Shown: piece after piece, positions 9,368 to 25,315 of the stretch
Position numbering within the stretch: the stretch's first letter is position 1
How the letters are laid out: every line of letters begins with the position of its first letter
Assembly (NCBI RefSeq): GCF_024199845.1
Contig: NZ_JANADO010000001.1
Location: 3,472,001 to 3,536,000 of the forward strand
Direction: 5' to 3'
Origin: Bradyrhizobium sp. CCGB12
Lineage (GTDB): Bacteria; Pseudomonadota; Alphaproteobacteria; Rhizobiales; Xanthobacteraceae
DNA: 64,000 nt
Translations under genes and position numbers: made by a program
Notes under the pieces: model-generated
Told to the model about the DNA's origin: nothing
What the model saw: the letters and a program-made list of their open reading frames with translations, nothing else
Databases searched by the model: none

Positions 9368-10141
9368 TTAGCGTTCGGCGAACGCCTTTTCGACCACGAA
9401 TTGGGCCGGCTCGCCGTGATTGCCCTCAATGAGGCCGCGCTCGGCCAGCAGCACGCGGGTGTCCGCGACCAGGGCGGGGCTGCCGCAGATCATGACGCGA
9501 TCGTGGGCGGCTTCCAGCGCCGGCAGGCCGATATCGGCGAACAGCTTGCCTGAGGTGATGAGGTCGGTGATGCGGCCGCGATTGCGGAAGGGATCGCGAG
9601 TCACGGTCGGATAATAGATCAGTTGGTCCCGGATGTACTCACCGATCAATTCGTCCTTTGGCAGCGTCTCGGTGATCATCTCGCCATAGGCGAGTTCCTT
9701 CACGTGCCGGCAGCCGTGCAGCAGCACCACTTTCTCGAACCGCTCATAGGTCTCGGGGTCCTTGATCACGCTCAGGAACGGAGCGAGGCCGGTGCCGGTG
9801 CCGATGAGGTAGAGGTTGCGCCCCTCGTCCAGGTTGTCGATCACGAGCGTACCGGTGGCCTTGCGGCTGACGATGATCTCGTCGCCTTGCTTCAAATGCT
9901 GGAGGCGCGAGGTCAGCGGACCGTCCGGCACCTTGATCGAGAAGAATTCCAGCGTGTCCTCGTAATTGGCACTGGCGACGCTGTAGGCCCGCAGCAGCGG
10001 CTTCTCGCCGACCTTGAGCCCGATCATGGTGAACTCGCCGTTGCGGAAACGGAAGGTCGGGCTGCGGGTGGTCTTGAAGGAGAACAGCGTGTCGGTCCAG
10101 TGGTGGACGCTCAAAACGCTTTCCTGATTGAAATTGCTCAT
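9368..10141 (-). CDS. fpr: Ferredoxin-NADP(+) reductase
   Basis: This 257-aa FAD flavoprotein of the bacterial Fpr type has the FAD motif RAYSVAS at 51-57, NADP-binding GTGTGLAPF at 114-122 and a C-terminal tail ending VVEKAFAER, typical of proteobacterial FNRs. It exchanges electrons between NADPH and ferredoxin or flavodoxin. A GTG codon directly precedes the ATG at 10141; I choose the ATG. It is divergent from the enamidase-like gene, with two regulatory half-sites between them. I infer that its likely job here is supplying reducing power to the 6-hydroxynicotinate reductase or the nearby P450. In other bacteria Fpr is often oxidative-stress induced, so a housekeeping role is also possible. 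Confidence 0.92.
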   Translation of the reverse strand: MSNFNQESVLSVHHWTDTLFSFKTTRSPTFRFRNGEFTMIGLKVGEKPLLRAYSVASANYEDTLEFFSIKVPDGPLTSRLQHLKQGDEIIVSRKATGTLVIDNLDEGRNLYLIGTGTGLAPFLSVIKDPETYERFEKVVLLHGCRHVKELAYGEMITETLPKDELIGEYIRDQLIYYPTVTRDPFRNRGRITDLITSGKLFADIGLPALEAAHDRVMICGSPALVADTRVLLAERGLIEGNHGEPAQFVVEKAFAER

Positions 10142-10192
10142 CACACCTTCCCTGTCGCTTCCAATGCGGTTCCGAGGCGGTCAGCTATGCGT

Positions 10193-10222
10193 CGTTTGTA
10201 CACGATCATTCGTATACTAATG
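10193..10222. promoter_or_regulatory. Operator half-sites between fpr and the enamidase gene
   Basis: CGTTTGTAC (10193-10201) matches one arm of the class A operator. CATTCGTATACTAATG (10207-10222) is a near-perfect 16-bp palindrome whose first 11 bases also occur upstream of the 6-hydroxynicotinate reductase gene. A further imperfect palindrome, TTGATC and GGTCAA, lies at 10234-10249. Binding is inferred, not shown. Confidence 0.55.
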
Positions 10223-10297
10223 AATAATCCGGCTTGATCCCGCGGTCAAGGCTGCCCAAGATCGGAAGCGTTGCAGTTAGGAATAAGGAGCCATTCC

Positions 10298-11494
10298 ATG
10301 GCGCATGACGCACCCCAGGCCACCGGACCCTCGAAGCTCGTGATCCGGAATATCGGCCTGATCCTGTCCGGCGCGATGGAAAAGCCGATCCTGGACGGCG
10401 ACACCATCGTCGCCGAGAACGGCAAGATCACCGCGATCGGCCGCTACAAGGATCTCAACACGGACGACGCGACCACCATCGTCGAGGCCAACGGCACCAC
10501 GGTGGCGCCGGGCCTGATCGACAGCCACGTCCACCCCGTCGCCGGCGACTGGACGCCGCGCCAGAACCAGATCGGCTGGATCGACAGCAACCTCCACGGC
10601 GGCGTCACCACGATGATTTCCGCCGGCGAAGTGCACATGCCCGGCCGTCCGCGCGACGTCGTCGGGCTCAAGGCCATGGCGATCTTTGCGCAGCGCGCAT
10701 TCTGGAATTTGCGGCCCGGCGGCGTGAAGGTTCACGCCGGCGCGCCCGTGATCGAATGCGAGATGGTCGAGGAGGATTTCAAGGAGTTGGCCGCGGCCGG
10801 CGTCAAGCTGCTCGGCGAAGTCGGCCTTGGCGGTGTCAAGGACGGCCCCACCGCGCGAAAGATGGTCGGCTGGGCGCGCAAATACGGCATCCAAAGCACG
10901 ATCCACACCGGCGGCCCCTCGATCCCCGGCTCCGGCCTGATCGACAAGGACGTGGTGCTGGAGGCCGACACCGACGTGGTCGGCCACATCAACGGCGGCC
11001 ACACGGCGCTGCCCGACGATCAGATCCGCTGCATCTGCGAGGGCTGCAAGCGCGGCCTCGAGCTCGTGCACAACGGCAATGAGCGCTCGGCGCTGTTCAC
11101 ACTGCGTACCGCGCGCGAGATGGGCGACCTGCACCGGGTCATCCTCGGCACCGACGCGCCGGCCGGCTCCGGCGTGCAACCGCTCGGCATTTTGCGCATG
11201 GTTTCGATGCTGTCCTCGCTCGGCGAACTCCCGGCCGAGATCGCGTTTTGTCTGGCCACCGGCAACACGGCACGGATGCGGCAGCTCGACTGCGGCCTCA
11301 TTGAAGTGGGCCGCTCCGCCGATTTCGTCATCATGGACAAGGCGCAGCATTCGCCGGGCAAAAACATCCTGGAGAGCGTGCAGCTCGGCGACCTCCCCGG
11401 CATCGGCATGACCATCATCGACGGCATCGTACGCACCCAGCGTAGCCGCAACACGCCGCCTGCCGGCAAGGTGCCGGAGGTGGTGGCGAAGTGA
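10298..11494 (+). CDS. ena: Enamidase-like amidohydrolase (putative 6-oxotetrahydronicotinate ring opening)
   Basis: This 398-aa protein belongs to the dihydroorotase/urease-like amidohydrolase superfamily. Visible metal ligands are H77 and H79 (HVH), a probable bridging Glu174 (GEVG), H203 (IHTGG), H230 (GHINGG) and D286 (GTDAP). Sequence style and length match enamidase of the Eubacterium barkeri nicotinate pathway, which hydrolyses 1,4,5,6-tetrahydro-6-oxonicotinate to 2-formylglutarate and ammonium. The ATG at 10298 follows AAGGAG at ideal spacing; the longer frame does not. It shares a divergent promoter with fpr and regulatory half-sites with the hnr/nicAB region, which supports the pathway assignment. 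Another cyclic amide substrate remains possible. Confidence 0.75.
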   Translation: MAHDAPQATGPSKLVIRNIGLILSGAMEKPILDGDTIVAENGKITAIGRYKDLNTDDATTIVEANGTTVAPGLIDSHVHPVAGDWTPRQNQIGWIDSNLHGGVTTMISAGEVHMPGRPRDVVGLKAMAIFAQRAFWNLRPGGVKVHAGAPVIECEMVEEDFKELAAAGVKLLGEVGLGGVKDGPTARKMVGWARKYGIQSTIHTGGPSIPGSGLIDKDVVLEADTDVVGHINGGHTALPDDQIRCICEGCKRGLELVHNGNERSALFTLRTAREMGDLHRVILGTDAPAGSGVQPLGILRMVSMLSSLGELPAEIAFCLATGNTARMRQLDCGLIEVGRSADFVIMDKAQHSPGKNILESVQLGDLPGIGMTIIDGIVRTQRSRNTPPAGKVPEVVAK

Positions 11495-11500
11495 CGCAGC

Positions 11501-11520
11501 CGGAGCGGCGCGCCGCTCCG
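11501..11520 (+). terminator. Perfect 20-bp palindrome after the enamidase gene
   Basis: CGGAGCGGCG followed by CGCCGCTCCG forms a perfect GC-rich palindrome six bases after the stop codon. It is positioned as a terminator hairpin but has no loop spacer and no T-tract, so it may be Rho-assisted or an mRNA end structure. Confidence 0.5.
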
Positions 11521-11619
11521 CATCGTCTCTCCAAGGCGTTGAACAAATCGCAGGCCTGTTGCGTCTAACGCAGGCAGCCCTTGGCGGCCGCAGTTCACTG
11601 CTTGACCATCGGGAAAGAC

Positions 11620-12309
11620 ATGAAGAACTCGTCGCGAATAGCCGCCGGCGTTGCCGGGGCGGTGGCAGGCTATGTCGCGATCTTTGTGCTGTTTTCCCTC
11701 CTCGATTTCGGAAACCGGGCAGACCCGATCACATCGGGTCTGTTGGGACTCTTCGTCTACTCCCCCATCGGCGCGATCGGCGGCGCGGTGCTCGCCAGTT
11801 GGCTGGTGACGCGTTCAGGCAAGGATGCAGGCAATGGCAGCGTCGCGCGCACCAGCCTGAAGTCGCTGGGCGTGCTCGCCCTGCTCTGCGTCGCCGCCGT
11901 TGCCACCTACATTGTCTACGCCTATGCGACCGCCACGCCCTGGCTCAACCGGAACGGCAACAATCCCCTGCTCGTGTTCGAGGTTCGCTTTCCCGCGGGC
12001 GCAACGGTGCCGACATCTGCCCAAGGCATCACCATCGAATTGCAGACCGACCTCAACACCATGCCGGGCGAAGTGACCCCGGCCGCCTTCTATCGCGACG
12101 GCGACCAGCCTGTCATCGCAGGCGAGGTCGAGCTCGCGTTTCGAACCTCGCACCGGCAGCTCGCCGTCACCATCCCGGGCCAGCCGAGCCGGATCTACCC
12201 GATCGGACTATCGGCCTGGGCGCCGCATACGCCGGAGTTCGGAACGTGGCGACGGCTCGCTGACGGCAGCGAAATCCGCTACCGCGCCAAATGGCCGGGC
12301 AAGACATGA
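11620..12309 (+). CDS. Membrane protein of unknown function
   Basis: This 229-aa protein has about three N-terminal transmembrane helices (roughly 7-27, 40-62 and 79-99) followed by a soluble domain of about 125 residues containing FEVRFPAGATVP and an IPGQPSRIYPIGL segment that looks beta-rich. I chose the ATG at 11620 (MKNSSRIAAG), just before the first helix, over an unsupported longer start. The soluble part probably faces the periplasm. I do not recognise the family. It converges on a small secreted protein gene with a 4-bp gap, and nothing ties it to the nicotinate genes except position. Confidence 0.7.
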   Translation: MKNSSRIAAGVAGAVAGYVAIFVLFSLLDFGNRADPITSGLLGLFVYSPIGAIGGAVLASWLVTRSGKDAGNGSVARTSLKSLGVLALLCVAAVATYIVYAYATATPWLNRNGNNPLLVFEVRFPAGATVPTSAQGITIELQTDLNTMPGEVTPAAFYRDGDQPVIAGEVELAFRTSHRQLAVTIPGQPSRIYPIGLSAWAPHTPEFGTWRRLADGSEIRYRAKWPGKT

Positions 12310-12313
12310 GCGA

Positions 12314-12703
12314 TCAGCGCGACTTGGGTATCTCACAACGCACATAGGTCTGGCGCTTGGCACGCCCGACCGGGCCGTTATCCATCACCAGCTTGCCGTC
12401 CGCAGCGATGGATACCCGGGGATGAGAGCCGAATTTCTCGCCTTCGCCTTCGCAGGCGAGCCGCATTTTCCAGCCCAGCTTCCCATCTGCGGTGATCTCG
12501 CTGGCGCGGCACCGCGTCTCGTACCAATAAAGGCGATTGCCGCCCTCGATGCTCATGCGGTTGGCGCTGTCCTGATCGCGGCAATCCTTTCTGGTCGCGG
12601 CCCAGAAGCCTTCATAGGGCTGCGCGGCCAACGCAGGCGCACACTGGCCCGCGAGCGCCGCACCAAAACTCAAAGCCACCACAAATCGCGTCGCAGCTCT
12701 CAT
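12314..12703 (-). CDS. Small secreted protein, unknown function
   Basis: This 129-aa protein has a clear signal peptide (MRAATRFVVALSFGAALAG, cleavage near ALAA) and a mature domain of about 100 residues with four cysteines in the C-terminal half (for example KDCRD, TRCRAS, LACEGE, VRCEIPKSR), suggesting two disulphides in the periplasm. The start at 12703 has a GAGG site; the longer frame to 12730 has none. No known domain is recognised. Similar small cysteine-paired secreted proteins occur at 56.8 kb in this window, but the sequences do not align obviously. Confidence 0.7.
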   Translation of the reverse strand: MRAATRFVVALSFGAALAGQCAPALAAQPYEGFWAATRKDCRDQDSANRMSIEGGNRLYWYETRCRASEITADGKLGWKMRLACEGEGEKFGSHPRVSIAADGKLVMDNGPVGRAKRQTYVRCEIPKSR

Positions 12704-12746
12704 GCCGGTAGACCTCGACAAAGCCTTCATCGAGGTTAGTCGCCGG

Positions 12747-13202
12747 TCACCGCAGCTTGTTCAACAGCGCCATCAGCAGTTCGCGCTCTTTCGCATCGAG
12801 CGGCGCCAGCGTCTCGCGGGTGATCGCAAGCGCGTTTGGCGCCAGCTTCTCGGCAAGCTGCTGACCGGCGCGCGTCAGGCTGACCAGCAAGCGTCGCCCG
12901 TCCTCGGGATCCTGGCTGGTCTCCGTCAGACCACGCGCCGTCAGGCGGTCGATCACGCCCTTGATGGTCGCAACGTCCATCGCGGTGAGACGCCCGAGCT
13001 GGTTCTGCGAGCACGGCCCGGTCTCGGCGAGCTTCGACAGCGCCGCCCATTGCGTCGGCGTGAGGTTGGTCCCGATGTCGCGCGAGAAGATCGAGCTGTG
13101 GCGCTGCCAGACCTGGCGCAGGATGAAGCCGACCTGCTCGTCGAGCACGTAAGGCGGTTTTGCCGGTTTGACGCTCTTCTTCGCCGTGACGCTTCTCGCC
13201 AT
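12747..13202 (-). CDS. MarR family transcriptional regulator
   Basis: This 151-aa winged-helix MarR regulator has the DNA-binding core at about residues 50-110 (PTQWAALSKLAE, then ATIKGVIDRLTARGL and the wing EDGRRLLVSLT). In Pseudomonas putida a MarR-type repressor, NicR, controls the nicotinate genes with 6-hydroxynicotinate as inducer, so this gene could play that role here; I cannot verify orthology, and the symbol is left blank. It lies immediately upstream of the Liv-type ATPase genes in the same direction, with a 24-bp gap to the stop of livF, so it is probably the last gene of the transporter operon or separately expressed. Confidence 0.88.
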   Translation of the reverse strand: MARSVTAKKSVKPAKPPYVLDEQVGFILRQVWQRHSSIFSRDIGTNLTPTQWAALSKLAETGPCSQNQLGRLTAMDVATIKGVIDRLTARGLTETSQDPEDGRRLLVSLTRAGQQLAEKLAPNALAITRETLAPLDAKERELLMALLNKLR

Positions 13203-13226
13203 CCGTTCGCAGCCCTTCCCCTTGCC

Positions 13227-13931
13227 TCACAACGACAGATGCGCGTCGCGGATATCCGGACGCGCGTCGAGCTCGGCCATGGTGCCGCCGAAGCAGATGC
13301 GGCCGCGCTCGATGATGTAGGCGCGATCCGAGATCAGCCGCGCGAAGTGCAAATTCTGCTCGGAGACGACGATGCTGACGCCCTCCTTCTTCATGGTCAG
13401 GATGGCGTCGACCATCTGCTCCACGATCTTCGGCGACAGGCCCTCCGAGGGCTCGTCCAGCAGCACCAGCGACGGATTGCCCATCAGCGTGCGCGCGATG
13501 GTCAGCATCTGCTGCTCGCCGCCGCTCATGCGGCCGCCCGGACGGTTTTTCATCTCACCCAGATTTGGAAACAGCGTGAACAGCTTTTCGCGCGTCCAAT
13601 GCGGCGCGTTGGGACGCTTGGGTTGACGGCCGACTTCGAGATTCTCCTCGACGGTCAGATCGGTGAAGATGCGCCGCTCCTCCGGCACATAGCCAAGCCC
13701 GTCGCGCACGATTTCATGTGTCGGGCGCGCCGAGACATCCTTGCCCTCGAACATGATACGGCCGGTTCGCTGCGCGACGAGGCCGACGATCGACCGGAAC
13801 GTCGTCGACTTGCCGGCGCCGTTACGGCCCAGAAGCGCGACGACCTCGCCCTCGGCGACCTCGAAGCCGATGTCGAACAGGATGTGCGCCGGGCCGTAAT
13901 GACTGTTGAGGTCTTGCACCGTGAGCTTCAT
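13227..13931 (-). CDS. livF: Branched-chain amino-acid-type ABC transporter ATPase (LivF)
   Basis: This 234-aa ATPase of the LivF subfamily has Walker A GRNGAGKST at 35-43, signature MSGGEQ at 135-140 and Walker B SLVLLDEP at 154-161. It powers the membrane pair encoded by the fused LivH-LivM gene. Its ATG overlaps the stop of livG by four bases (ATGA), so the subunits are translated as a coupled set. LivF/LivG systems carry branched amino acids but also aromatic acids and urea; the surrounding genes make an N-heteroaromatic acid such as nicotinate a reasonable inferred substrate. Confidence 0.93.
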   Translation of the reverse strand: MKLTVQDLNSHYGPAHILFDIGFEVAEGEVVALLGRNGAGKSTTFRSIVGLVAQRTGRIMFEGKDVSARPTHEIVRDGLGYVPEERRIFTDLTVEENLEVGRQPKRPNAPHWTREKLFTLFPNLGEMKNRPGGRMSGGEQQMLTIARTLMGNPSLVLLDEPSEGLSPKIVEQMVDAILTMKKEGVSIVVSEQNLHFARLISDRAYIIERGRICFGGTMAELDARPDIRDAHLSL

Positions 13932-14719
13932 GCCGATGCTCCCTCGCGATGCTCGGCATCGTATAGCAGGCCCTCGCCGAGATAGACGGCCTGCACTTGC
14001 GGATTGGCGCGCACCTCGGCCGGCGAGCCCTCGGCGATCAGCGTGCCGCGGTTGAGCACGATGATGCGGTCGGCATGTTCGAACACTACATCCATGTCGT
14101 GCTCGGTGAAGAGCACGCCGATCGACTTTTCCCGCGCGATTTGAGCGGTCAGCCGCATCAGATCGACGCGATCGCGCGGCGCCATTCCGGCAGTCGGCTC
14201 GTCCATCAAGAGCAGCTTGGGCTGGTTGGCGAGCGCGACCGCAAGCTCGAGCCGCTTGAGGTCGCCATAGGCGAGCTCGCCGCAGGGCCGATCCGCGTAA
14301 CCGCTCATGCCGACCAGTTCGAGCAGACGACCGGCCTCGCCGCGGTCGAACTTCGGCGCCGAGCCGAACAGATTGAACAGCTGCTTCCCGTGCGAGATCA
14401 GCGCGACCTGCACGTTCTCGCGCACGGTCATGGTGGCGAAGGTTGCAGTGATCTGAAACGTACGCCCGACCCCGAGCCGCCAGACCTCGCGCGGCTTCCT
14501 GCCTGTGATCTCTTCGCCGAGCAGGCGGACGTGCCCGGAGTCTGGCTTGTTCTGGCCGTTGAGCATGTCGAAGCAGGTGCTCTTGCCGGCACCGTTCGGG
14601 CCGATCAGCGCCAGGATCTCGCCGGCGCGCAGCGAGAACGAGACGCCGCGCACGGCATGGATGCCGCCATAGGATTTGGTCAAGCCTTCGACCGCGAGAA
14701 GTTCGGGTGCGACGCTCAT
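13928..14719 (-). CDS. livG: Branched-chain amino-acid-type ABC transporter ATPase (LivG)
   Basis: This 263-aa LivG-type ATPase has Walker A GPNGAGKST at 40-48 and Walker B LLLMDEPT at 169-176. The signature region reads LAYGD at 149-153 rather than canonical LSGGQ; LSYG-like variants are normal for LivG. The long insertion after the Q-loop (about 105-135) is typical of this subfamily. The gene overlaps livF and the LivH-LivM gene by four bases on either side, an unbroken operon. It acts on the cytoplasmic face with LivF as a heterodimer. Confidence 0.93.
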   Translation of the reverse strand: MSVAPELLAVEGLTKSYGGIHAVRGVSFSLRAGEILALIGPNGAGKSTCFDMLNGQNKPDSGHVRLLGEEITGRKPREVWRLGVGRTFQITATFATMTVRENVQVALISHGKQLFNLFGSAPKFDRGEAGRLLELVGMSGYADRPCGELAYGDLKRLELAVALANQPKLLLMDEPTAGMAPRDRVDLMRLTAQIAREKSIGVLFTEHDMDVVFEHADRIIVLNRGTLIAEGSPAEVRANPQVQAVYLGEGLLYDAEHREGASA

Positions 14720-16605
14720 TCGGCAGACTCGATCGACTTGGCAAGCAAAGGAGATCCCGGCGGCGATGACTTCCTGCGGCGCTGCGCGAGCATCTCGAGC
14801 ATGCCGACGATGCCCTTGGGGAAGACGACGACGATCAGCATGATGAAGCCGCCGAGCACGAGCTTCGACAGGTCGGTCTGGCTCACCAGCCAGATGTTCA
14901 GCGCCTTGTAGACGATGGCGCCGATCACCGCGCCCGACACCGTCTCGACGCCGCCGAGCAGCACCATGACCAACGCATCGACCGACAGCGAGATGCTGAG
15001 ATTGTCAGGGAACACGCTGCCCTTGAGGTAGGCGAACAGCGCCCCGCCGATGCCCGCAGTCGTGCCCGCGATCACGAAGGCTGTCCATTGGATGCGCTTG
15101 GCATCGATGCCGATCGCTTCGCTGCGCAGGAGCGAGTCGCGCGTGGCACGGAGCGCGTAGCCGAATGGCGAGAACACCATGGCTCGCAGCGCGATGGTCA
15201 CCAGTGCCGCGACGCCGAGCGCAAGCCAGTAGAAGTTCGACGGGCTCGCCGCCCATTTTTCCGGCCAGACGCCCAAAATGCCGTTGTCGCCACCGGTGAC
15301 GCTTACCCATTGGAACGCGATCGACCACACGATCTGCGCGAAGGCGAGCGTCAGCATTGCAAAATAGACGCCGGAGAGCTGCACGGCGAAGAAGCCGAAC
15401 ACGGCCGCGCCCATGCAGCCGAGCAGCGGACCGAGCAGCAGGCACACGATCATCGGCAGCCCCGCCATTTTGGCGAGGAAGGCCACACCGTACGCGCCGA
15501 GGCCGAAATAGGCGGCGTGACCGAAGGATGCGAGCCCGCCGACCGACATCAGGAAGTGCAGGCTGACGGCGAAGATCACGAAGATCGCGATCTCCGAGCC
15601 GACGGTGAGCAGATAATTGCCGGCGAACAGCGGCAGGGTCGCTGCGACGACGAGCGCCGCAAGCGCGGCCAGCCGTTCGTTCGACGTCAGCGGCCGCCAG
15701 GGATTGACGGTGAGACCCGGCGTCTTGCGCGCGGCCGCCTCCGGCTTGCCGAACAGGCCCCAGGGTCGCACGATCAGCACCACCGCCATCACCAGGAAGA
15801 CCAGGATGATGGAAATCTTCGGGAAGATCAGAATGCCGAAGGCATTGAGCTCGGAGACCAGCACCGCCGCAACGAAGGCACCGACGATGCTGCCGAGACC
15901 ACCGATCACGACGACGACGAAAACTTCCACGATGATGCGCAAGTCCATGGCGTGGTGCACGGCATCGCGCGGAATCTGAAGCGCACCGCCGAGGGCGGCG
16001 AGGAAGACACCAACCGCAAACACGCTCGTGAACAGCCATTTTTGATTGACGCCGAGCGCCGCGACCATGTCGCGGTCCTGCGTCGCCGCGCGAACCAGCA
16101 CGCCCCAGCGCGTGCGCTGGAACAGCAGCCAGAGGATGCCGAGCACGACTGGGCCAAGCACGATCAAGAACAGGTCGTAGCTCGGGATGTTCTGGCCGAA
16201 GAAATCGATCGCGCCCTTGAAGCCGGGCGCACGCCGGCCGACGAGATCATCGGGCCCCCAGATCAACACGACGAGATCCTCGACCATCAAGGTCAGGCCG
16301 AAGGTCGCGAGCAGCTGGAACAATTCGGGCGCATGATAAATACGCCGAAGCAGCACCATCTCGACGATCACACCGATCAGCGCCACCACCAGCGCGGCCA
16401 GCACGATCCCGCCCCAGAAGCCGAACGCCCCCGAAAAGCGTTCCGTGAGCGTGAAGGCGATGTAGGCGCCGATCATGTAGAAGGCGCCGTGCGCGAAATT
16501 CACGATCCGCGTCACGCCGAAGATGATCGACAGGCCCGAGGCCACCAGAAACAGCGACGCTGCGCTGGCGAGACCGGTCAGAAACTGTACGACGTAAAAG
16601 GCCAT
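14716..16605 (-). CDS. Fused LivH-LivM ABC permease
   Basis: This 629-aa membrane protein contains two permease halves normally made as separate subunits: residues about 1-290 are LivH-like (FGVTRIVNFAHGAFYM near the start; RDAVHHAMDLRIIVEVF in the EAA-type region) and about 310-610 are LivM-like (GGLASFGHAAYFGLGAYG; LRATRDSLLRSEAIGIDA). A short linker (KPEAAARKTPGLTVN) joins them. Both halves have the expected hydrophobic helices, so the fusion looks functional. Such fusions are seen in some rhizobial Liv systems. It makes a complete importer with LivF, LivG and the binding protein 0.2 kb upstream. Confidence 0.92.
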   Translation of the reverse strand: MAFYVVQFLTGLASAASLFLVASGLSIIFGVTRIVNFAHGAFYMIGAYIAFTLTERFSGAFGFWGGIVLAALVVALIGVIVEMVLLRRIYHAPELFQLLATFGLTLMVEDLVVLIWGPDDLVGRRAPGFKGAIDFFGQNIPSYDLFLIVLGPVVLGILWLLFQRTRWGVLVRAATQDRDMVAALGVNQKWLFTSVFAVGVFLAALGGALQIPRDAVHHAMDLRIIVEVFVVVVIGGLGSIVGAFVAAVLVSELNAFGILIFPKISIILVFLVMAVVLIVRPWGLFGKPEAAARKTPGLTVNPWRPLTSNERLAALAALVVAATLPLFAGNYLLTVGSEIAIFVIFAVSLHFLMSVGGLASFGHAAYFGLGAYGVAFLAKMAGLPMIVCLLLGPLLGCMGAAVFGFFAVQLSGVYFAMLTLAFAQIVWSIAFQWVSVTGGDNGILGVWPEKWAASPSNFYWLALGVAALVTIALRAMVFSPFGYALRATRDSLLRSEAIGIDAKRIQWTAFVIAGTTAGIGGALFAYLKGSVFPDNLSISLSVDALVMVLLGGVETVSGAVIGAIVYKALNIWLVSQTDLSKLVLGGFIMLIVVVFPKGIVGMLEMLAQRRRKSSPPGSPLLAKSIESAE

Positions 16606-18702: not shown

Positions 18703-19599
18703 TCAGGCATGAACCGCGTTCTCCAGCACAAGCGGGCGCGCTTCTTGCCGTTCAATATCTTTTGGTCCGATGACAAGCATATCACCACAAAGCTGCAACA
18801 CGGCCCCCTCGATCAATCCGCGCTCGAATAATTGCCGTGCACATTCCGCGCCAGATTCGAGGGCGGCTGCGATCTCGTTGCGGGACAGCTGGCCGACATC
18901 ACGGGTGACGAGGCGTGGACCGAGATCACTGTCGGGCTGAAGCTCGTCGGCAGCGCACCGGATGATGGCGGGATGGCCGGGCAGATCGACTGCGTTGGCA
19001 ATGATGGTGGCCGCCGCATCGGCCTGCGATGCCGTCGCCGCCAGCACCGTCACCGCGTCGGCGATGCCGAGGGAAAAACTGCGACCGTGACGCCCGCTCG
19101 TCGCGACGCCGCGAACGGGATCACCCGCATCGACCGTCATCGTCCGCATGACGCCGGCGCGATCGGGCCGGTCCATCAGACCGACCGAAAAATGCTCACC
19201 CCTGCCAAGATGAAGCGCGATGTCGCCGCCATTGTTGACATAGGCCCGATCGAGCGCCGCGGCGTCCAGCATCGCGCCGAGAATTTCCTCCGCAACGCTG
19301 CCGGCGACGGCGGCCATGGGCGTGACGAAGCAATCGGCGGCATAGGGCGCGACCGCGGTATGCATCCGCAGCGCGACCACGCCCTTCAGCGAAGTCCGCA
19401 CCTCAGCGGCCGTCCGCAGCTCCGGCAATTCCGCGCAGAGCTCGTCGAGGAGCCCGGTGAACCGCCGCGCCGCAGCCTTATGGGCCGCGCGCACCTCGCT
19501 CGCGTCTCCCCTCGCCTCCACGATCAGATCAATCGGACCATCCTGCAAATGCAGCCGCCGGCCATCAGACAGCAATGCGATTTGCGGGAGCCTTGTCAT
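18703..19599 (-). CDS. UPF0280 family (ApbE-like) protein
   Basis: This 298-aa protein of the UPF0280 family is structurally related to ApbE FAD:protein FMN transferases. I see the conserved TAVAPYAADCFVTPMAAVAGSVA-type segment, VNNGGDIALHL, and VRGVATSGRHGRSFSLGIADAVTVLA, which parallel the ApbE flavin-binding core. The ATG at 19599 overlaps the stop of the upstream 6-hydroxynicotinate reductase gene by four bases (ATGA), so the two proteins are made together. A plausible role is flavin insertion into, or interaction with, that reductase. Function of UPF0280 is otherwise unproven. Confidence 0.85.
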   Translation of the reverse strand: MTRLPQIALLSDGRRLHLQDGPIDLIVEARGDASEVRAAHKAAARRFTGLLDELCAELPELRTAAEVRTSLKGVVALRMHTAVAPYAADCFVTPMAAVAGSVAEEILGAMLDAAALDRAYVNNGGDIALHLGRGEHFSVGLMDRPDRAGVMRTMTVDAGDPVRGVATSGRHGRSFSLGIADAVTVLAATASQADAAATIIANAVDLPGHPAIIRCAADELQPDSDLGPRLVTRDVGQLSRNEIAAALESGAECARQLFERGLIEGAVLQLCGDMLVIGPKDIERQEARPLVLENAVHA

Positions 19600-21053
19600 G
19601 CCCGCCGTCCCGGAATCGGGTTCTGCCAAGGCAGCTGCCGAACATCGTCGCCGTTCTGCACTTCGGAGAGTGGCTTCACATAGTCCATGTGGCCGCCGAG
19701 CGCGGCATAGTCGGACAGCTTCATCGTGAACTCGATGGGCGCGACCAGCGCCGGCGTCGGTACATAGCCGAACGCGCCTGAAGGCATCTGCGTGACGTCC
19801 ACCATGTAGGTGATGCCGCCGCCGGGCCAGACATAGACCGGGGCGCCGCCGCTGGTGACGCGCGTCAGCGCGTCCTTCACCGAACGCGTCAGCCTCACCG
19901 GGTTGTCGGTGACGCCCGCGCGCAAGGACCCGCCGGCGCCGGCCATGAACAGCACCGTGCACAGCGCCGGTTCGCAATTCTCCTGGATGCGCTCGACCGA
20001 GAATTTCAGGTCGGCAGGCATCTCGGTCTCGACCGGCTTCAAGGCCTCATCGAGCACGTAATAGGACGAATGCTCGCCGGTGGTTGAGACCATCAGCATG
20101 GTCAGACCGGGCATTGCTTCCTTGGCATCGAACGGCCCAAGGATCGCCAGCGGATCGGAGATGTTGGTGCCGCCCCAGCCGGTGCCGGGATCGGCGACCT
20201 GGAAATAGCGGCCGGGCGTCGAGCGCCGGCCCTTCATCTTGATGCCGGTGTCGGCGATGTCGAGCAGCTTGCCGGCTTGGTGCTCGCTGAGCACGCCGGT
20301 GATGTGATCGTCGACGACGACGACCTCGTCGACCTTGCCGTGCCATTGCTTGGCGAACATGCCGATCGTCGCCGAGCCGCAGCCTACGCGCATGCGCTCT
20401 TCCCTGACGCCGTTGACGATCGGCGGCTGGCCGGCCTGCACCACCACGCTCGCGCCGCCGTCGATGGTGAGCTCGACCGCCTTGCAATTGGCGAGGTCCA
20501 TCAGCGTATCGCAGGTGACGCGGCCTTCCTTCTTGGAGCCGCCGGTCAGATGATGCACGCCGCCGAGCGATAGCATCTGCGAACCATACTCGCTGGTGGT
20601 GACGTGGCCGATCGCCTCGCCCTGCGCGCGAACCGTCGCGGTCTCCGGACCGAGATAGCGGTCGGTGTCGATCTTCACCTTGATGCCGCAATAGGAGAAG
20701 ATGCCTTCGGTGACGACAGTCACCATGTCGACGCCATCGACTTCAGCGGAGACGATGAACGGCGCCGGCTTGTAGTCGGGATAGGTCGTGCCCGCGCCGA
20801 TCGCGGTGACGAAGGTCGAAGGCTCGTGGACGATCTTGCCGTCCCAGTCTTCCGTGCGGCTGAACGGAACGAGCTTGCCGCCATGCGAGACGGTGCGCTC
20901 GAGGATCACGTGCGGATCGACGCGAACGAGCTTGCCGTCGTGATTGGCGTAGCGGTCGCAGGCGCCCGCCGCGCCCGGCTTGATGTAGCACATCACCGGA
21001 CAGGCATCGCAACGGATCTTGTCGATGGCTGCGCTCGTTGTTTCCATCACCAT
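19596..21053 (-). CDS. hnr: 6-Hydroxynicotinate reductase homologue (iron-sulphur)
   Basis: This 485-aa protein resembles the 6-hydroxynicotinate reductase of Eubacterium barkeri, which reduces 6-hydroxynicotinate to 1,4,5,6-tetrahydro-6-oxonicotinate with reduced ferredoxin. Near the N-terminus I see C15, C18, C22 and C32 (CDACPVMC, then GAACD-like GACDRY), a probable [4Fe-4S] site, followed by a long alpha/beta body with GIFSYCGIKVKIDTD, VGCGSATIGMFAK and GTGWGGTNISDP. The frame extends upstream through a regulatory palindrome, so I place the start at MVMETTSAAID, 21053; a second ATG at 21047 is possible. It is divergent from nicAB and overlaps the UPF0280 gene. Function rests on family resemblance plus context. 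Confidence 0.78.
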   Translation of the reverse strand: MVMETTSAAIDKIRCDACPVMCYIKPGAAGACDRYANHDGKLVRVDPHVILERTVSHGGKLVPFSRTEDWDGKIVHEPSTFVTAIGAGTTYPDYKPAPFIVSAEVDGVDMVTVVTEGIFSYCGIKVKIDTDRYLGPETATVRAQGEAIGHVTTSEYGSQMLSLGGVHHLTGGSKKEGRVTCDTLMDLANCKAVELTIDGGASVVVQAGQPPIVNGVREERMRVGCGSATIGMFAKQWHGKVDEVVVVDDHITGVLSEHQAGKLLDIADTGIKMKGRRSTPGRYFQVADPGTGWGGTNISDPLAILGPFDAKEAMPGLTMLMVSTTGEHSSYYVLDEALKPVETEMPADLKFSVERIQENCEPALCTVLFMAGAGGSLRAGVTDNPVRLTRSVKDALTRVTSGGAPVYVWPGGGITYMVDVTQMPSGAFGYVPTPALVAPIEFTMKLSDYAALGGHMDYVKPLSEVQNGDDVRQLPWQNPIPGRRA

Positions 21054-21080
21054 GTCAGAGCCGGCGGACACCGCGGTTAT

Positions 21081-21096
21081 CATTCGTATACGAACG
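21081..21096. promoter_or_regulatory. Operator palindrome upstream of hnr
   Basis: A perfect 12-bp palindrome, TTCGTATACGAA (21083-21094), lies inside a wider imperfect one (CATTCGTA, then TACGAACG). ATCATTCGTATAC also occurs between fpr and the enamidase gene. It sits about 30 bp upstream of the chosen hnr start, well placed for repression. Confidence 0.6.
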
Positions 21097-21233
21097 ATGT
21101 TGCGCGCGGTCCCGATGACTGTCAAGCGGCGGTGCGGCGCAAAAGATGCGGCTGCCGCATAAAACCTCATTTGCGCATCCGCTCTGTCCACAAAGGAGGC
21201 AGTCGCGCTGCAGTGCGGCATGCACGGCTTGCA

Positions 21234-21249
21234 CGTTTGTGTACAAACG
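21234..21249. promoter_or_regulatory. Operator palindrome upstream of nicA
   Basis: Perfect 7-bp arms CGTTTGT and ACAAACG separated by GT lie 54 bp before the nicA start. The right part contains GTACAAA, the half-site of the class A operators at 2.05 and 26.6 kb. NicR-type or TetR binding is inferred. Confidence 0.6.
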
Positions 21250-21302
21250 GTATCGTCGCAAGATAGATTTTGCAGCACTTGGCCGCGGGCTTGGGAACGA
21301 GG

Positions 21303-21785
21303 ATGACGCAGACACCGATCCGCCTCACCGTGAACGGCAGGATCCACGAGGTCACTGCAGAGCGCCAGACGCCGCTGCTCTATGTGCTGCGCAACGACCT
21401 CGCGCTCAACGGGCCGAAATATGGCTGCGGCCTCGGTGAATGCGGCACCTGTACTGTCCTGATCGATGGGGCCGCAGCGCGCTCCTGCGTGATTCCCGTG
21501 AGCGGCTGCGTCGGGCGCGACATCGTTACGCTCGAAGGTCTCGGCACCCGCGACAGGCCTGATGTGGTGCAACAGGCCTTCATCGACGAGCAGGCCGCGC
21601 AATGCGGCTACTGCCTCAACGGCATGATCATGACCACCAAGGCGCTTCTCGCAGTCAATCCACGACCGACCGAACAGGAGGCACTGGCGGCATTGCGCTA
21701 CAATCTCTGCCGCTGCGGCACGCATGTCGAGATCCTGCGCGCGGTGATGCGCGCATCCGGGCAGCTCACCGAGGCCGCTGATTGA
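21303..21785 (+). CDS. nicA: Nicotinate hydroxylase small subunit, two [2Fe-2S] clusters
   Basis: This 160-aa protein of the xanthine dehydrogenase small-subunit class has a plant-type [2Fe-2S] site at C42, C47, C50 and C62, and a second cluster at C101, C104, C136 and C138 (QCGYC, later LCRCG). It carries electrons from the molybdenum centre of the large subunit. Size and layout match NicA of Pseudomonas putida. I start at the ATG at 21303 (MTQTPIRLTVNG), the normal N-terminus for this family, rather than an upstream TTG. The stop overlaps the nicB ATG by one base. Operator-like palindromes lie upstream in the gap shared with hnr. Confidence 0.9.
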   Translation: MTQTPIRLTVNGRIHEVTAERQTPLLYVLRNDLALNGPKYGCGLGECGTCTVLIDGAAARSCVIPVSGCVGRDIVTLEGLGTRDRPDVVQQAFIDEQAAQCGYCLNGMIMTTKALLAVNPRPTEQEALAALRYNLCRCGTHVEILRAVMRASGQLTEAAD

Positions 21786-24700
21786 TGGCCTCCCCTGCTT
21801 CGACCGGAACTACGGGGCCATCCGGCTCGCTCGTCGTCGTCCGTAGCGTGGACGAGGTCACATTCGAAACCTTCGTCCGCATCACCGCGGATGGGTCGGT
21901 CACGGCCTATAACGGCCATGTCGATCTCGGCACCGGCATCCGCACGGCGCTCGGTCAGATCGTCGCCGAAGAATTGGATGTGTCCTTTGCCCGCGTCGTC
22001 GTCGTGCTCGGCGATACCGCATTGGTGCCGAACCAGGGCGCGACCATCGCGAGCGAAACCATCCAGATCACCGCCGTTCCCCTGCGCAAAGCCGCCGCGC
22101 AAGCGCGACACTTCCTGATCGCGCGAGCGGCGGAACGGCTGGAGCTGCCGGAGACCGACCTCAGGATCGAGGACGGCCTCGTGCGCGGGCACGACAACCG
22201 CAGCGTCAGCTATGGCGAGCTGATCGGCGGCGAGACCATTCGCCTCGAACTCGCCGACGACGTCGCCGTGAAACCCGTCGGCGAGTACGCCATCGTCGGC
22301 CAGTCGATGCCGCGTGTCGATCTTCCGGCCAAGGCGACGGGCGAGCTGACCTTCGTGCACGACATCCGCGTACCGGGCATGCTGCACGGCCGCGTGGTAC
22401 GTCCGCCCTATGCCGGTGTCGATGCCGGCCCGTTCGTCGGCACCAGCCTGATCGCCGTCGATGAGTCCTCCGTACGCGATATCCCCGGCATCATAGCCGT
22501 CGTGCGCCTCGGCGATTTCGTCGGCGTAGTCGCCGAGCGCGAGGAGAACGCGATCCGCGCGGCGGAGCAACTCGCGGTGAGCTGGAAGCCAACGCCTGAG
22601 CTCACCAACCTCGCCGACGTCGAGACGGCACTCCGCGCCAATCCCTCGACACCGCGCACGCTGATCGACAAGGGCGATGTCGATGCTGCGATATCAGGTG
22701 CAGCCAGGCCGATGCAGCGCACTTACGTCTGGCCCTATCAGATGCACGCCTCGATCGGTCCCTCCTGTGCCGTCGCCGACTTCCAGGACGGCAACATCCG
22801 CGTCTGGTCCGGCACGCAGAACCCGCATTTGCTGCGCAGCGATCTGGCGCTGCTGATCGAGCGTCCCGAGAGCGAGATCGAGGTCATCCGGCTGGAAGCG
22901 GCCGGCTGCTACGGCCGCAACTGCGCCGACGACGTCACCGCCGACGCGCTACTGCTCTCCCGCGCGGTCGGCCGGCCCGTGCGGGTGCAGCTCACGCGCG
23001 AGCAGGAGCACGCCTGGGAGCCCAAGGGCACCGCGCAGCTCATCGACGTCAATGGCGGCCTCGACGCCGACGGCAGCATCGCCGGTTACGATCTTGCCAC
23101 GCGCTATCCCTCGAACGCCGCGCCGACGCTGGCCCTGCTGCTGACGGGTCGGATCTCGCCCGAGCCCGCCGTTCTCCAGATGGGCGACCGCACCGCGATC
23201 CCGCCCTACGATTACGACAACATGCGCGTCGTCGCCCACGATATGCCGCCGATCGTGCGCGCCTCCTGGTTCCGCGGCGTCTCGGCGCTGCCGAACACTT
23301 TTGCGCACGAATCCTATATCGACGAGGCCGCGACCGAGGCTGGTGTCGACCCCATCGAGTATCGCCTGCGCTATCTCAAAGACCAGCGCGCGGTCGATCT
23401 CGTCAACGCGGTCGCCGAACGCGCCGGCTGGACGCCTCGGCCGGTGCGCGAGGAGAAGGAGGGCGAAGTCGTGCATGGGCGGGGCTTTGCCTATGCGCTT
23501 TATGTCCACAGCAAATTTCCGGGCTATGGCGCGGCGTGGTCGGCGTGGGTCACCGACGTCGCCGTGAACAAGGCGACCGGCGACGTCAGCGTCACGCGCG
23601 TCGTCGCGGGACAGGATTCCGGCCTGATGATCAATCCGGACGGCGTGCGCCACCAGATCCACGGCAACGTCATCCAGTCCGCCAGCCGCGCGCTGATGGA
23701 GGAGGTCTCGTTCGAGCGCGGCGCGGTGGCGGCGCGCGAATGGGGCGCCTACCCGATCATCCCTTTCCCCGATGTGCCCAAGATCGACGTGCTGATGCTG
23801 CCGCGTCAGGACCAGCCGCCGCTCGGCGTCGGCGAATCCGCTTCGGTACCGAGCGCCGCGGCGATCGCGAACGCGATCTTCGATGCCACCGGCGTGCGTT
23901 TTCGCGAGCCGCCATTCACGCCCGAGCGGATCCTGCAAGGGCTGCACGCCGATGCACCGGCGACGCCCCAGGCCCTGCCCGCGCCGGCCCCGTCGCCGCC
24001 GTCTCGCATCTGGGAGAATCCCTTCGCCAAACGCGCCGGCATCTTCGCGACGATTGCGGCCGTCTGCACCGCCGCGATCGGCATCGGCGCCGCTCTCCTG
24101 CCCGGGCGGACCATCGCACCGATCGCACGTCCCGACGCGTCGGTCTATTCCGCCGCGACGATAGCGCGCGGCCAGCAGCTCGCCGCGCTCGGCAATTGCG
24201 CCGAGTGCCACACCAGCCCCGGCGGTGCGATCAATGCCGGCGGGCGTGCGCTGGAGACACCGTTCGGCACGATCTACGCGACCAACATCACGCCCGATGT
24301 CGAAACCGGCATCGGCGCCTGGTCCTATCCCGCCTTCGAGCGCGCGATGCGCGACGGGCTGCATCGCGACGGACGGCAGCTTTATCCCGCCTTCCCCTAC
24401 ACGCACTTTTCAAAGACCAGCGATGCCGACCTTCAGGCCCTCTACGCCTACCTCATGGCCCAGCCTGCAGTGCGCGCGTCAGCAACGGCGAACAGGCTGG
24501 CCTTCCCTTTCAATCTCCGCCCGCTGCTCGCTGGTTGGAATGCGCTGTTCCATCGAACCAAGGAGTTCAAACCCGATCCTGACAAATCCGAGGTCTGGAA
24601 TCGCGGTGCCTATCTCGTCGAGGGCCTCGGCCATTGCAGCGGCTGCCATACGCCACGCAATGCGCTCGGCGCCGAGCAGCGTGAGGCCTATCTCGCCGGC

Positions 24701-25315
24701 GGCTTTACCGAGGGCTGGGAGGCGCCCGCGCTGACGTCGCTCTCGCGCGCGCCGATTCCGTGGAACGAGGACGAACTGTTCGCTTACTTGCGCACCGGTC
24801 ATTCGCGCTATCACGGCGTCGCGGCCGGCCCGATGGCGCCTGTCGTCAGGGACCTCAGGGCCCTCCCCGACCAGGACATCCGCGCGATGGCGGTCTATCT
24901 CAACTCGTTCAATGACATCGCGAGCGACCGGCAAAAGCTGGATGCGCTTGCGATGAGCCTCGAGAGCGCAACGCAGGTTACCGTCGCCTCATCCAGCGGC
25001 GCGCGGCTCTACCAGGGCGCCTGCGCCGTCTGCCACGAGGTCGGCGGCCTGCCGCTGTTCGGCAGCCGGCCCTCGCTCGCGCTCAACAGCAATCTGCACA
25101 GCGCCACGTCGGACAATCTCGTGCAGGTGATCCTGCACGGCATCGCAGAACCGGTATCGAGCGACCTCGGCTACATGCCGGCGTTCAGGAACAGCATGAG
25201 CGACACGCAGGTCGAGGAGCTTGTCAGCTTCCTTCGCAAACAGTTCGCGCCGAACAAGCCGGCCTGGACCGGCGTCCGCGAGACAATCGCGCGTGTGCGA
25301 TCGTCGGCGCACTGA
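21785..25315 (+). CDS. nicB: Nicotinate hydroxylase large subunit: molybdopterin domain plus three cytochrome c sites
   Basis: This 1176-aa protein has about 735 residues of aldehyde oxidase/xanthine dehydrogenase molybdopterin-binding domains, with the catalytic Glu684 in GVGESAS, a hydrophobic helix at about 753-772, and then three haem c motifs: CAECH at 805-809, CSGCH at 951-955 and CAVCH at 1080-1084. The architecture and length match NicB of P. putida (about 1187 aa), which with NicA hydroxylates nicotinate at C6 and passes electrons to the respiratory chain rather than to NAD or oxygen. The helix probably anchors it in the membrane with the haems outside. Substrate could be a related pyridine or an aldehyde (isoquinoline oxidoreductase relatives exist), but hnr and ena nearby favour nicotinate. 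Confidence 0.85.
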   Translation: MASPASTGTTGPSGSLVVVRSVDEVTFETFVRITADGSVTAYNGHVDLGTGIRTALGQIVAEELDVSFARVVVVLGDTALVPNQGATIASETIQITAVPLRKAAAQARHFLIARAAERLELPETDLRIEDGLVRGHDNRSVSYGELIGGETIRLELADDVAVKPVGEYAIVGQSMPRVDLPAKATGELTFVHDIRVPGMLHGRVVRPPYAGVDAGPFVGTSLIAVDESSVRDIPGIIAVVRLGDFVGVVAEREENAIRAAEQLAVSWKPTPELTNLADVETALRANPSTPRTLIDKGDVDAAISGAARPMQRTYVWPYQMHASIGPSCAVADFQDGNIRVWSGTQNPHLLRSDLALLIERPESEIEVIRLEAAGCYGRNCADDVTADALLLSRAVGRPVRVQLTREQEHAWEPKGTAQLIDVNGGLDADGSIAGYDLATRYPSNAAPTLALLLTGRISPEPAVLQMGDRTAIPPYDYDNMRVVAHDMPPIVRASWFRGVSALPNTFAHESYIDEAATEAGVDPIEYRLRYLKDQRAVDLVNAVAERAGWTPRPVREEKEGEVVHGRGFAYALYVHSKFPGYGAAWSAWVTDVAVNKATGDVSVTRVVAGQDSGLMINPDGVRHQIHGNVIQSASRALMEEVSFERGAVAAREWGAYPIIPFPDVPKIDVLMLPRQDQPPLGVGESASVPSAAAIANAIFDATGVRFREPPFTPERILQGLHADAPATPQALPAPAPSPPSRIWENPFAKRAGIFATIAAVCTAAIGIGAALLPGRTIAPIARPDASVYSAATIARGQQLAALGNCAECHTSPGGAINAGGRALETPFGTIYATNITPDVETGIGAWSYPAFERAMRDGLHRDGRQLYPAFPYTHFSKTSDADLQALYAYLMAQPAVRASATANRLAFPFNLRPLLAGWNALFHRTKEFKPDPDKSEVWNRGAYLVEGLGHCSGCHTPRNALGAEQREAYLAGGFTEGWEAPALTSLSRAPIPWNEDELFAYLRTGHSRYHGVAAGPMAPVVRDLRALPDQDIRAMAVYLNSFNDIASDRQKLDALAMSLESATQVTVASSSGARLYQGACAVCHEVGGLPLFGSRPSLALNSNLHSATSDNLVQVILHGIAEPVSSDLGYMPAFRNSMSDTQVEELVSFLRKQFAPNKPAWTGVRETIARVRSSAH

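Follow-up and report, generated by a model that had tools for sequence, protein, structure and literature searches.

The region at positions 9368–25315 of the window (the whole 64,000-nucleotide stretch of Bradyrhizobium sp. CCGB12 DNA that was analyzed) is very probably, judging from the families of its encoded enzymes, an aerobic nicotinate cluster of the Azorhizobium/Bradyrhizobium type. As the pathway and the cluster in relatives have already been published, what is new here is the evidence that places a DUF1185 protein at the ring-opening step or immediately after it. We propose that this protein converts the 2-formyl-dicarboxylate released by the ring-opening hydrolase, which in this case would be 2-formylglutarate.

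Gene content of the cluster

A preliminary description of this DNA had placed nicA-nicB, hnr, ena, fpr, a MarR-family regulator and an ABC importer together in this region. The open reading frames, all with high third-position GC, and the family and structure matches confirm this. Nicotinate hydroxylase is encoded on the plus strand by nicA (21303–21785; 2Fe-2S subunit with Fer2 and Fer2_2 domains in the profile search, PF01799 E=1.8e-25) and nicB (21785–25315). The NicB subunit combines molybdopterin and tri-heme cytochrome c domains, with three CXXCH motifs in the translation, and in a sequence search of solved structures it also matches the nicotinate dehydrogenase subunits of 3hrd. The enamidase gene ena (10298–11494, plus strand), for the conversion of 1,4,5,6-tetrahydro-6-oxonicotinate (THON) to 2-formylglutarate and ammonium, was assigned from its top match among solved structures, 2vun ('ENAMIDASE', E=2.5e-108, the runner-up reaching 3.6e-6), which we take to be from Eubacterium barkeri.

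The minus strand carries fpr (9368–10141), for a ferredoxin-NADP reductase-like protein of 257 aa whose best NCBIfam match, NF008178, scores 164 bits, below the cut-off of 390, and the gene of the MarR-family regulator (12747–13202; PF01047, E=1.4e-11). The importer genes lie on the same strand and encode a LivF-type ATPase (13227–13931; recognized from its translation and recurring among the neighbourhoods compared), a LivG-type ATPase (13928–14719; family matches), a fused LivH-LivM permease of 629 aa (14716–16605; two stretches of PF02653) and a periplasmic substrate-binding protein (16807–18087; PF13458, E=7.8e-69). Two further genes should be regarded as hypothetical. The first, for a membrane protein (11581–12309, plus strand), gave no match in the family search and was matched in 1 of 60 loci, many of them too short to reach that far. 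In an ORF-based table of 140 loci, which misses some genes, it was matched in 7, many loci again being too short, and the second gene, for a small exported protein recognized from its translation (12314–12730, minus strand), in 6. The cluster as a whole is not a chance assembly, because its neighbourhood recurs in many genomes.

The family scan around the cluster covered 20 open reading frames between 5639 and 31308. In agreement with the preliminary description, a motif scan found no ferredoxin-like open reading frame in 7000–27000, its two matches containing stop codons.

The reductase module

The hnr gene (19596–21047, minus strand; other in-frame starts are possible at 21053 and 21083) encodes a 6-hydroxynicotinate reductase of 483 aa, 98% identical to an NCBI entry of that name (P0002, Bradyrhizobium sp. 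CB1717). The sequence search returned no convincing relative among solved structures, and Cys 13, 16, 20 and 30 are conserved in 76 of 76 aligned homologues. Homologues of about 60–78% identity occur with a different, flavin-type hydroxylase, often without ena.

A UPF0280 gene (18703–19599, minus strand; the name is the label of its relatives in annotated plasmid records) lies immediately downstream of hnr in 132 of the 135 loci with room downstream, or 130 of 133 when distinct hnr genes are counted; it was found in 0 of 80 hnr-negative genomes. The gene-presence tables across hnr loci were obtained by tblastn, while the contig scan for hnr took the best 80 of 593 loci, including Alphaproteobacteria and Acidobacteria, with no titled Clostridia among the matches listed. 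UPF0280 goes with hnr, forming a reductase module. The protein is distantly ApbE-like (22.4 bits against PF02424, under the Pfam cut-off of 25.6) and has an NxGGD motif conserved in at least 76 of 77 sequences at each position inspected; the sub-threshold match and the co-occurrence point to a partner of Hnr. Thr227 of Hnr is an obvious ApbE-type target residue. The possibility that UPF0280 attaches a flavin covalently to the GSAT motif of Hnr was considered and not adopted, given that Thr227 is Ala in 9 of the 76 homologues and that the ApbE score is below the cut-off. Neither the UPF0280 gene nor the DUF1185 gene beside it had been mentioned in the preliminary description.

DUF1185-A and ring opening

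The second gene, which we name DUF1185-A (18091–18675, minus strand), encodes a protein that covers the full PF06684 model with 251.8 bits against a cut-off of 27 (E=3.5e-75). It shares 72% identity with the solved structure 2qtp, which we take to be SPO0826; 3byq, another structure of the family, is presumably BB2672. Conserved positions of the protein include Lys82, Glu91, His94, His137, Arg144 and His146. In a class draw of 385 Alphaproteobacteria, with identity cut-offs of 69% for ena and 65% for DUF1185-A, DUF1185-A was found in 31 of the 31 genomes with an ena orthologue, as compared with 2 of the 354 others, and 36 hnr-positive genomes of the draw held neither gene. In a second family (f193), DUF1185-A was found in 17 of 18 ena genomes and one genome had DUF1185-A only, these counts coming from searches for ena and DUF1185-A and leaving ena and hnr unseparated. 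Plasmids with a close ena carry DUF1185-A in 16 of 16 cases (12 of them Sulfitobacter), but as all 16 also carry hnr, ena and hnr are not separated there either. It should be considered throughout that the genomes are related and the counts therefore not independent. Genome G082 has ena and DUF1185-A and lacks both hnr and UPF0280, and in G001, DUF1185-A lies 16 bp from ena, with hnr and its importer on another contig.

There are also exceptions to the pairing. DUF1185-A occurs without ena in genomes G080 and G195, where the stretch examined lacks a hydantoinase gene as well, in G845, G732 and G104, and on 8 plasmids among the matches listed. When the cut-off is lowered to 55%, G104 and G011 join the class-draw genomes with DUF1185-A but without an ena orthologue, and in G842, a genome that is 76% complete, ena is partial and DUF1185-A was not found. 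In all eight hnr loci examined that have DUF1185-A and in which ena was not found, the hydantoinase gene hyuA is present. This weakens the idea of DUF1185-A as a strict partner of the enamidase; because hydantoinase genes occur where ena was not found, DUF1185-A is tied to ring opening rather than to the enamidase alone.

Other members of the family have comparable neighbours. A DUF1185 gene adjoins distant enamidases in 7 of 15 places of the class draw, in 1 of 1 in f193 and on at least 5 of 9 plasmids, and a further group, DUF1185-B, accompanies hnr in genomes that lack ena. In Acinetobacter sp. PK01, a DUF1185 gene precedes an alpha/beta hydrolase gene, followed by tgnA-C. The second DUF1185 gene of the present genome (L174) lies near glyoxalase-family and zinc dehydrogenase genes.

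We would tentatively assign to DUF1185 a chemistry on 2-formylglutarate, either decarboxylation or a tautomerisation that allows it; the genomic contexts lend this some plausibility, short of an even chance. A wider proposal is slightly more doubtful. Rather than serving amino-acid synthesis, PF06684/DUF1185 proteins may be partner enzymes of those hydrolases of pyridine degradation whose product is a 2-formyl-dicarboxylic acid. Four clades would then have one context each, namely nicotinate ring opening, hnr with a flavin-type hydroxylase, distant enamidases and trigonelline-type alpha/beta hydrolases, and each member would decarboxylate or tautomerise the formyl acid to the semialdehyde, here supplying the decarboxylation to which no enzyme is assigned in the nicotinate pathway of Azorhizobium. 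Under the same proposal, THON would be opened by a hydantoinase/oxoprolinase in some of the NicAB-hnr clusters that lack ena (L077, L206, L208). The result for HcdD, the DUF1185 protein of a coumarin operon, which was without stimulating effect (PMC7913881), counts against the role proposed here for DUF1185.

Promoter regions and proposed electron supply

The hnr and nicAB genes share a divergent promoter region in which a comparison of conserved palindromes gave two candidate operators, TTCGTATACGAA at 21083–21094 and TTTGTGTACAAA at 21236–21247. The gap between fpr and ena holds a further candidate operator region (10195–10220; TTTGTACACGAT and TTCGTATACTAA). Such palindromes were found in 50 of 52 and, for fpr/ena, 29 of 30 divergent regions, as compared with 66 of 1640 random windows. 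Their presence in both divergent promoters suggests a single regulon. Of the 61 loci with ena in the stretch examined, 35 have a homologue of fpr (above 45% identity), and in loci of another class (L071, L072) and of the Roseobacter group fpr is next to hnr or ena. The earlier proposal that fpr feeds Hnr gains from the palindromes common to its promoter and the hnr/nicA region and from these neighbours in other lineages, while the electron supply itself is still inferred.

Alternative readings

It could be argued that fpr stands outside the nicotinate pathway and goes with the cytochrome P450 gene nearby (7582–8853), as this gene follows fpr on the same strand after about 0.5 kb, with a small open reading frame (8952–9299) in between. 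The palindrome in the fpr/ena region and the neighbours of fpr in other lineages make this rather unlikely. Somewhat less probable still is a cluster that serves a related N-heterocycle, instead of or besides nicotinate. The flavin-type hydroxylases beside the more distant Hnr homologues would fit such a reading, as would strain SG-6C, which after dechlorination degrades 6-chloronicotinate by the same route (PMC3511419). The window, however, joins hnr to a NicAB-type hydroxylase and a close enamidase, a set of genes that has been published for bacteria using nicotinate. The most improbable of these readings is that NicAB begins an oxidative route of the NicC/NicX type, like that of Pseudomonas putida, with Hnr and Ena acting on another substrate. 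A NicAB-type hydroxylase is indeed common to P. putida, and a PF02073 search found one protein of the M29 family, to which NicX belongs, in the genome, although the family alone does not separate NicX from aminopeptidases. On the other side, no oxidative nicotinate ring-opening enzyme was recognized among the 20 open reading frames in and beside the cluster, the dioxygenase at 25521 scores above the catechol 2,3-dioxygenase cut-off, conserved palindromes lie in the divergent promoter region common to hnr and nicAB, and the published reading of such a cluster (PMC3511419) is the reductive one.

A more serious competitor, though still an unlikely one, takes DUF1185 as a protein of amino-acid metabolism or linked to a transporter, and no pathway enzyme. 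As given in PMC2954203, the argument rested on neighbouring branched-chain amino acid transporters and on the chorismate-mutase-like fold of the first structures. The Liv-type transporter here is, however, the importer of the nicotinate cluster, the DUF1185-A gene next to ena in G001 is on a different contig from the importer, and other DUF1185 clades are located in pyridine ring-opening operons.

Comparison with known systems and proposed pathway

The biochemistry of the pathway was established around 1990 and the cluster was recognized later. Such a cluster is described in PMC3511419 (2012) for Azorhizobium caulinodans, B. japonicum USDA110, R. palustris HaA2 and SG-6C. Clusters of this kind, USDA110 blr3818-3830 included, are assigned there to the degradation of nicotinate by way of 6-hydroxynicotinate and THON; the later steps, citing Kitts 1992, run via glutarate. 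The paper leaves two proteins of the cluster unexplained, which we take to be UPF0280 and DUF1185. The present cluster has in common with it the first three steps, the ABC transporter, the two conserved proteins and the bacterial group, and no difference in the described gene content was found, the comparison being one of descriptions rather than locus by locus. Likewise, A. caulinodans and E. barkeri are placed together in PMC9304392 as reducing the ring and opening it by hydrolysis. Together with the enzyme families, these sources support the reductive pathway that the preliminary description had read from the region. The following genetic features of the Azorhizobium-type aerobic reductive cluster are found here: an hnr homologue, a cytochrome-linked molybdenum hydroxylase, and an enamidase with a transporter and two conserved proteins of unexplained role.

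The fermentative nicotinate pathway of E. barkeri, reportedly described by Alhapel in 2006, resembles the present one in its Hnr and Ena homologues. The window has a NicAB cytochrome-type hydroxylase, whereas E. barkeri has a four-subunit NDH, and a glutarate branch would replace 2-hydroxymethylglutarate, as E. barkeri reduces 2-formylglutarate and does not decarboxylate it; no genes for the 2-hydroxymethylglutarate/methyleneglutarate branch were recognized among the 20 open reading frames between 5639 and 31308. The nic cluster of P. putida KT2440 is similar in its NicAB-type first enzyme and MarR-type regulator, but opens the ring with an oxygenase, while here the ring would be reduced and hydrolysed. 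The trigonelline operon tgnA-F, in which TgnF is stated to be homologous to a DUF1185 protein (PMC7913881), shares the adjoining DUF1185 and hydrolase genes, as seen in Acinetobacter sp. PK01, but combines oxygenolytic opening with an alpha/beta hydrolase, in contrast to Hnr and the enamidase. For the PF06684 structures 2qtp and 3byq, assigned to amino-acid metabolism in PMC2954203, the evidence here points to nicotinate breakdown.

In the proposed pathway, nicotinate would be taken up by the ABC importer and hydroxylated by NicAB to 6-hydroxynicotinate, with electrons passing to cytochrome c. Hnr with UPF0280, receiving electrons from Fpr via a ferredoxin or flavodoxin encoded elsewhere, would reduce 6-hydroxynicotinate to THON, from which Ena would release 2-formylglutarate and ammonium. 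DUF1185 may then decarboxylate 2-formylglutarate, or tautomerise it so that decarboxylation can follow, to glutarate semialdehyde, which would proceed via glutarate to glutaryl-CoA. Both divergent promoters would be under MarR control. While the gene content, its conservation, the shared palindromes and the two pairings (UPF0280 with hnr, DUF1185-A with ring-opening genes) are observed, what Fpr, UPF0280, DUF1185 and MarR do in the pathway is inferred.

The preliminary description held that the steps after 2-formylglutarate are missing. This may be partly wrong, as the window has in its DUF1185 gene a candidate for the step that follows; in the literature, we came across no gene assigned to the decarboxylation step. 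For the later steps, a semialdehyde dehydrogenase search (TIGR01780) gave 25 matches in the genome, 2 of them above the cut-off, too many to assign one gene, and in Sulfitobacter SK025, fatty-acid-type CoA genes come after ena.

The cluster can be viewed as two modules, one for ring reduction (hnr-UPF0280) and one for ring opening (DUF1185-A together with ena or a hydantoinase), so that each of the two unexplained proteins gets a place. If this is true, the label 'amino acid synthesis family protein', which is carried in many genomes, would be corrected and the solved structure 2qtp would gain a role.

Gene layout of the cluster

The cluster at 9368-25315 of the window begins on the left with fpr (minus strand), next to which the divergent ena (enamidase; plus) is followed by a gene for a hypothetical membrane protein (plus). 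A gene for a small exported protein and then marR come next, and to their right lie livF, livG, a fused livHM and a binding-protein gene, followed in this order by DUF1185 (18091-18675), UPF0280 (18703-19599) and hnr (6-hydroxynicotinate reductase), all on the minus strand; nicA and nicB (plus), divergent from hnr, form the right end. The source genome comprises 9.43 Mb in two contigs, and the closest fully covered named relative of its Hnr is that of Bradyrhizobium sp. CB1717 (98%). Family and structure matches bore out the gene names of the preliminary description, NicB carries three CXXCH motifs, and the ferredoxin gene described as missing was indeed not found, nor any ferredoxin-like gene, by a motif scan of 7000-27000. 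The nicotinate cluster was correctly recognized but is already known: PMC3511419 reports it for A. caulinodans (AZC_2804-2790), B. japonicum USDA110 (blr3818-3830), R. palustris HaA2 and strain SG-6C, and PMC9304392 also groups A. caulinodans with E. barkeri. Our search, which did not cover most subscription papers, found DUF1185 in 3 papers and none that mentions DUF1185 together with nicotinate, or either of them with "amino acid synthesis family".

Three neighbors were also observed: a catechol 2,3-dioxygenase gene (25521-26570; above the curated cut-off), past nicB on the opposite strand and adjoining the cluster in 19 loci; a cytochrome P450 gene (7582-8853) about 0.5 kb downstream of fpr on the same strand; and a HerA-type ATPase gene (26906-28669), whose matches to anti-phage-associated HerA models are far below the cut-offs.

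DUF1185-A accompanies ring opening

DUF1185-A, the type found in the window, goes with ring opening. In a draw of 385 alphaproteobacterial genomes, with cut-offs of at least 69% identity for ena and 65% for DUF1185-A, ena was found in 31 and DUF1185-A in 33; all 31 ena genomes, spanning 16 families, carry DUF1185-A, two others (G080, G195) carry it without ena, and 352 have neither. In 15 of the 31, no more than 2.5 kb separates the two. Lowering the DUF1185 cut-off to 55% added G104 and G011 as further genomes that have DUF1185 but lack an ena orthologue, and a second copy in G185, G279 and G357. Among the 68 genomes with hnr, 30 have ena and DUF1185-A, 2 have DUF1185-A alone and 36 have neither, while G082 has ena and DUF1185-A with hnr and UPF0280 absent. 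In a second family (130 genomes, searched for ena and DUF1185-A), 17 carry both, G842 a partial ena only and G845 DUF1185-A only. All 16 plasmids with ena at 69% or more, 12 of them from Sulfitobacter, carry both DUF1185-A and hnr. Separately, the source genome of the window holds a second DUF1185 gene (L174:9491-10069; C1:4185490-4186065), type B in the tree, far from its sole hnr match.

UPF0280 accompanies hnr

hnr was found in 68 of the 385 class genomes and in 32 of 398 drawn from the phylum, the two draws together giving 95 different hnr genomes. From these we took 60 stretches (G loci), to which 80 named ones (the best 80 of 593) were added, the 140 loci holding 138 distinct hnr sequences. 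Where the stretch reaches 1.5 kb or more past the downstream end of hnr (135 loci), UPF0280 follows hnr directly on the same strand in 132; it is 9 kb away in L160 and was not found within the stretches of L137 and L162. It was found in none of 80 hand-picked hnr-negative genomes of the class (E<=1e-10); such an empty result proves nothing by itself, but a tblastn control with the UPF0280 protein matched in 60/60 G loci. Its distant likeness to ApbE (2o34, E=2.9e-8) suggests a flavin-related role, although some Hnr proteins lack the Thr that is usually targeted. The hnr match of G028 (C1:2969823-2971249) consists of two overlapping pieces in different frames, a possible frameshift. About 5.7 kb upstream of hnr, 19 loci contain a family with a nicotinate phosphoribosyltransferase representative (L139:4230-5534).

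Hydroxylase types and hydantoinase

By hydroxylase, the 60 G loci divide into 9 with NicB (>50% identity), 45 with a flavin-type enzyme and 6 with neither within the stretch. The flavin-type enzyme combines 2Fe-2S and molybdopterin parts in one fused protein of roughly 920 aa, in most cases accompanied by a FAD subunit, and is on the hnr strand in 61 of 62 ORFs. Enamidase is absent from 23 of 50 hnr genomes (E<=1e-30). When four of the 60 G loci, of unknown ena status, were set aside, hydantoinase/oxoprolinase genes were found in 17 of 29 stretches without an ena orthologue versus 1 of 27 with one. Among the matches listed, eight plasmids have a 61-71% DUF1185-A relative but lack a close ena within that record (plasmid records only). 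The six looked at (L205-L209, L211; R. lusitanum and R. rhododendri were left out) all carry hnr, UPF0280, hyuA and both DUF1185 types, DUF1185-B being the one found with hnr in genomes without ena; G732 (L077) and G104 (L089, 57%) do so too, giving 8/8. Since three of these eight (L077, L206, L208) have the NicB-type hydroxylase, hydantoinase appears to replace enamidase in nicotinate-type clusters, and hydantoinase/oxoprolinase is possibly a second enzyme opening 1,4,5,6-tetrahydro-6-oxonicotinate. No hydantoinase was found within the stretches of G080 and G195. In Pleomorphomonas (L210, 57%) and Fuscovulum (L204) the sole DUF1185 is type B, with hyuA.

The ena-less hnr clusters in which hydantoinase/oxoprolinase genes were noted are L077, L206 and L208, of the NicAB type, together with L041, L048, L054, L075, L204, L205, L207, L209 and L211. 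A Rieske oxygenase gene lies near the DUF1185 pair at L198:2241-3308, L205:9608-10678, L209:9596-10666 and L047:12820-13878 (VanA_C type in L047); its product may remove the methyl group of an N-methyl pyridine, trigonelline for example.

Candidate operators

Among the divergent regions of the window and the 140 loci, palindromes TTYGTNTACRAA (at most 1 mismatch) occur in 50 of 52 between hnr and nicA (52 distinct sequences) and in 29 of 30 between ena and fpr (29 distinct), versus 66 of 1640 size-matched random windows, a comparison to be read knowing that the motif was derived from this window and that most loci are close relatives of one another. Exact matches occur at 9 places in the source genome, 2 of them in the cluster; a genome scan gave 12 matches versus 6 for the reversed pattern, and 3 of 100 shuffles of the window gave similar counts. 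The motif taken alone is therefore weak; it is chiefly position and conservation that speak for considering the palindromes at both divergent promoters as candidate operators.

DUF1185 in other pathways and its proposed step

Enamidases of more distant kinship (36-44%) have a DUF1185 gene next to them at 7 of 15 sites in the class draw, in G843 of the second family and on five or more of 9 plasmids, among them that of Thermomicrobium roseum (seven of the nine records were resolved, and adjacency in Mesorhizobium WSM4875 was read from match coordinates). No DUF1185 adjoins the distant enamidase of the Prescottella plasmid, and in Rhodococcus USK13 the nearest is about 23 kb away. The Mariluticola region also has genes for an FAD monooxygenase and for a succinate-semialdehyde dehydrogenase. 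The DUF1185 gene of Acinetobacter sp. PK01 is followed by one for an alpha/beta hydrolase and by genes annotated as tgnA, tgnB and tgnC. Sets consisting of a flavin reductase, an alpha/beta hydrolase and an aldehyde dehydrogenase gene are found close to DUF1185 on R. etli p42c and A. fabrum pAt and in Acidiphilium; as these plasmid regions were hand-chosen from long lists, they serve as examples and give no count. According to PMC7913881, the DUF1185 homologue TgnF stimulates TgnE-dependent succinate semialdehyde oxidation, and HcdD of a coumarin operon shows no such stimulation.

A tree of 45 chosen DUF1185 members has four supported groups matching four contexts, the unity of A and B being partly built in by their selection by identity. 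Eighteen charged, polar or aromatic residues, among them Lys82, Glu91, His94, Arg108, Asp132, His137, Arg144, His146, Glu162 and Arg178, are kept in >90% of the sequences of an alignment made up of 98 of type A, 70 of type B and 7 of the distant-enamidase type, trigonelline-type members having been left out. Such a pattern is enzyme-like.

Hydrolysis in these pathways yields a 2-formyl-dicarboxylate, from which a semialdehyde arises only through loss of CO2; after opening of the nicotinate-derived ring, decarboxylation is followed by oxidation to glutarate, and E. barkeri reduces 2-formylglutarate. In Sulfitobacter SK025, genes for an adenylate-forming enzyme, hydroxyacyl-CoA dehydrogenase, enoyl-CoA hydratase and acyl-CoA dehydrogenase follow the cluster and ena, as expected for a glutaryl-CoA branch. 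One possibility is that DUF1185 assists directly in opening the ring. Our own proposal, which we hold tentatively, is that DUF1185 would act on the 2-formyl-dicarboxylate on its way to the semialdehyde; action at this point would account for its tracking ring opening by either enzyme, and not the reductase.
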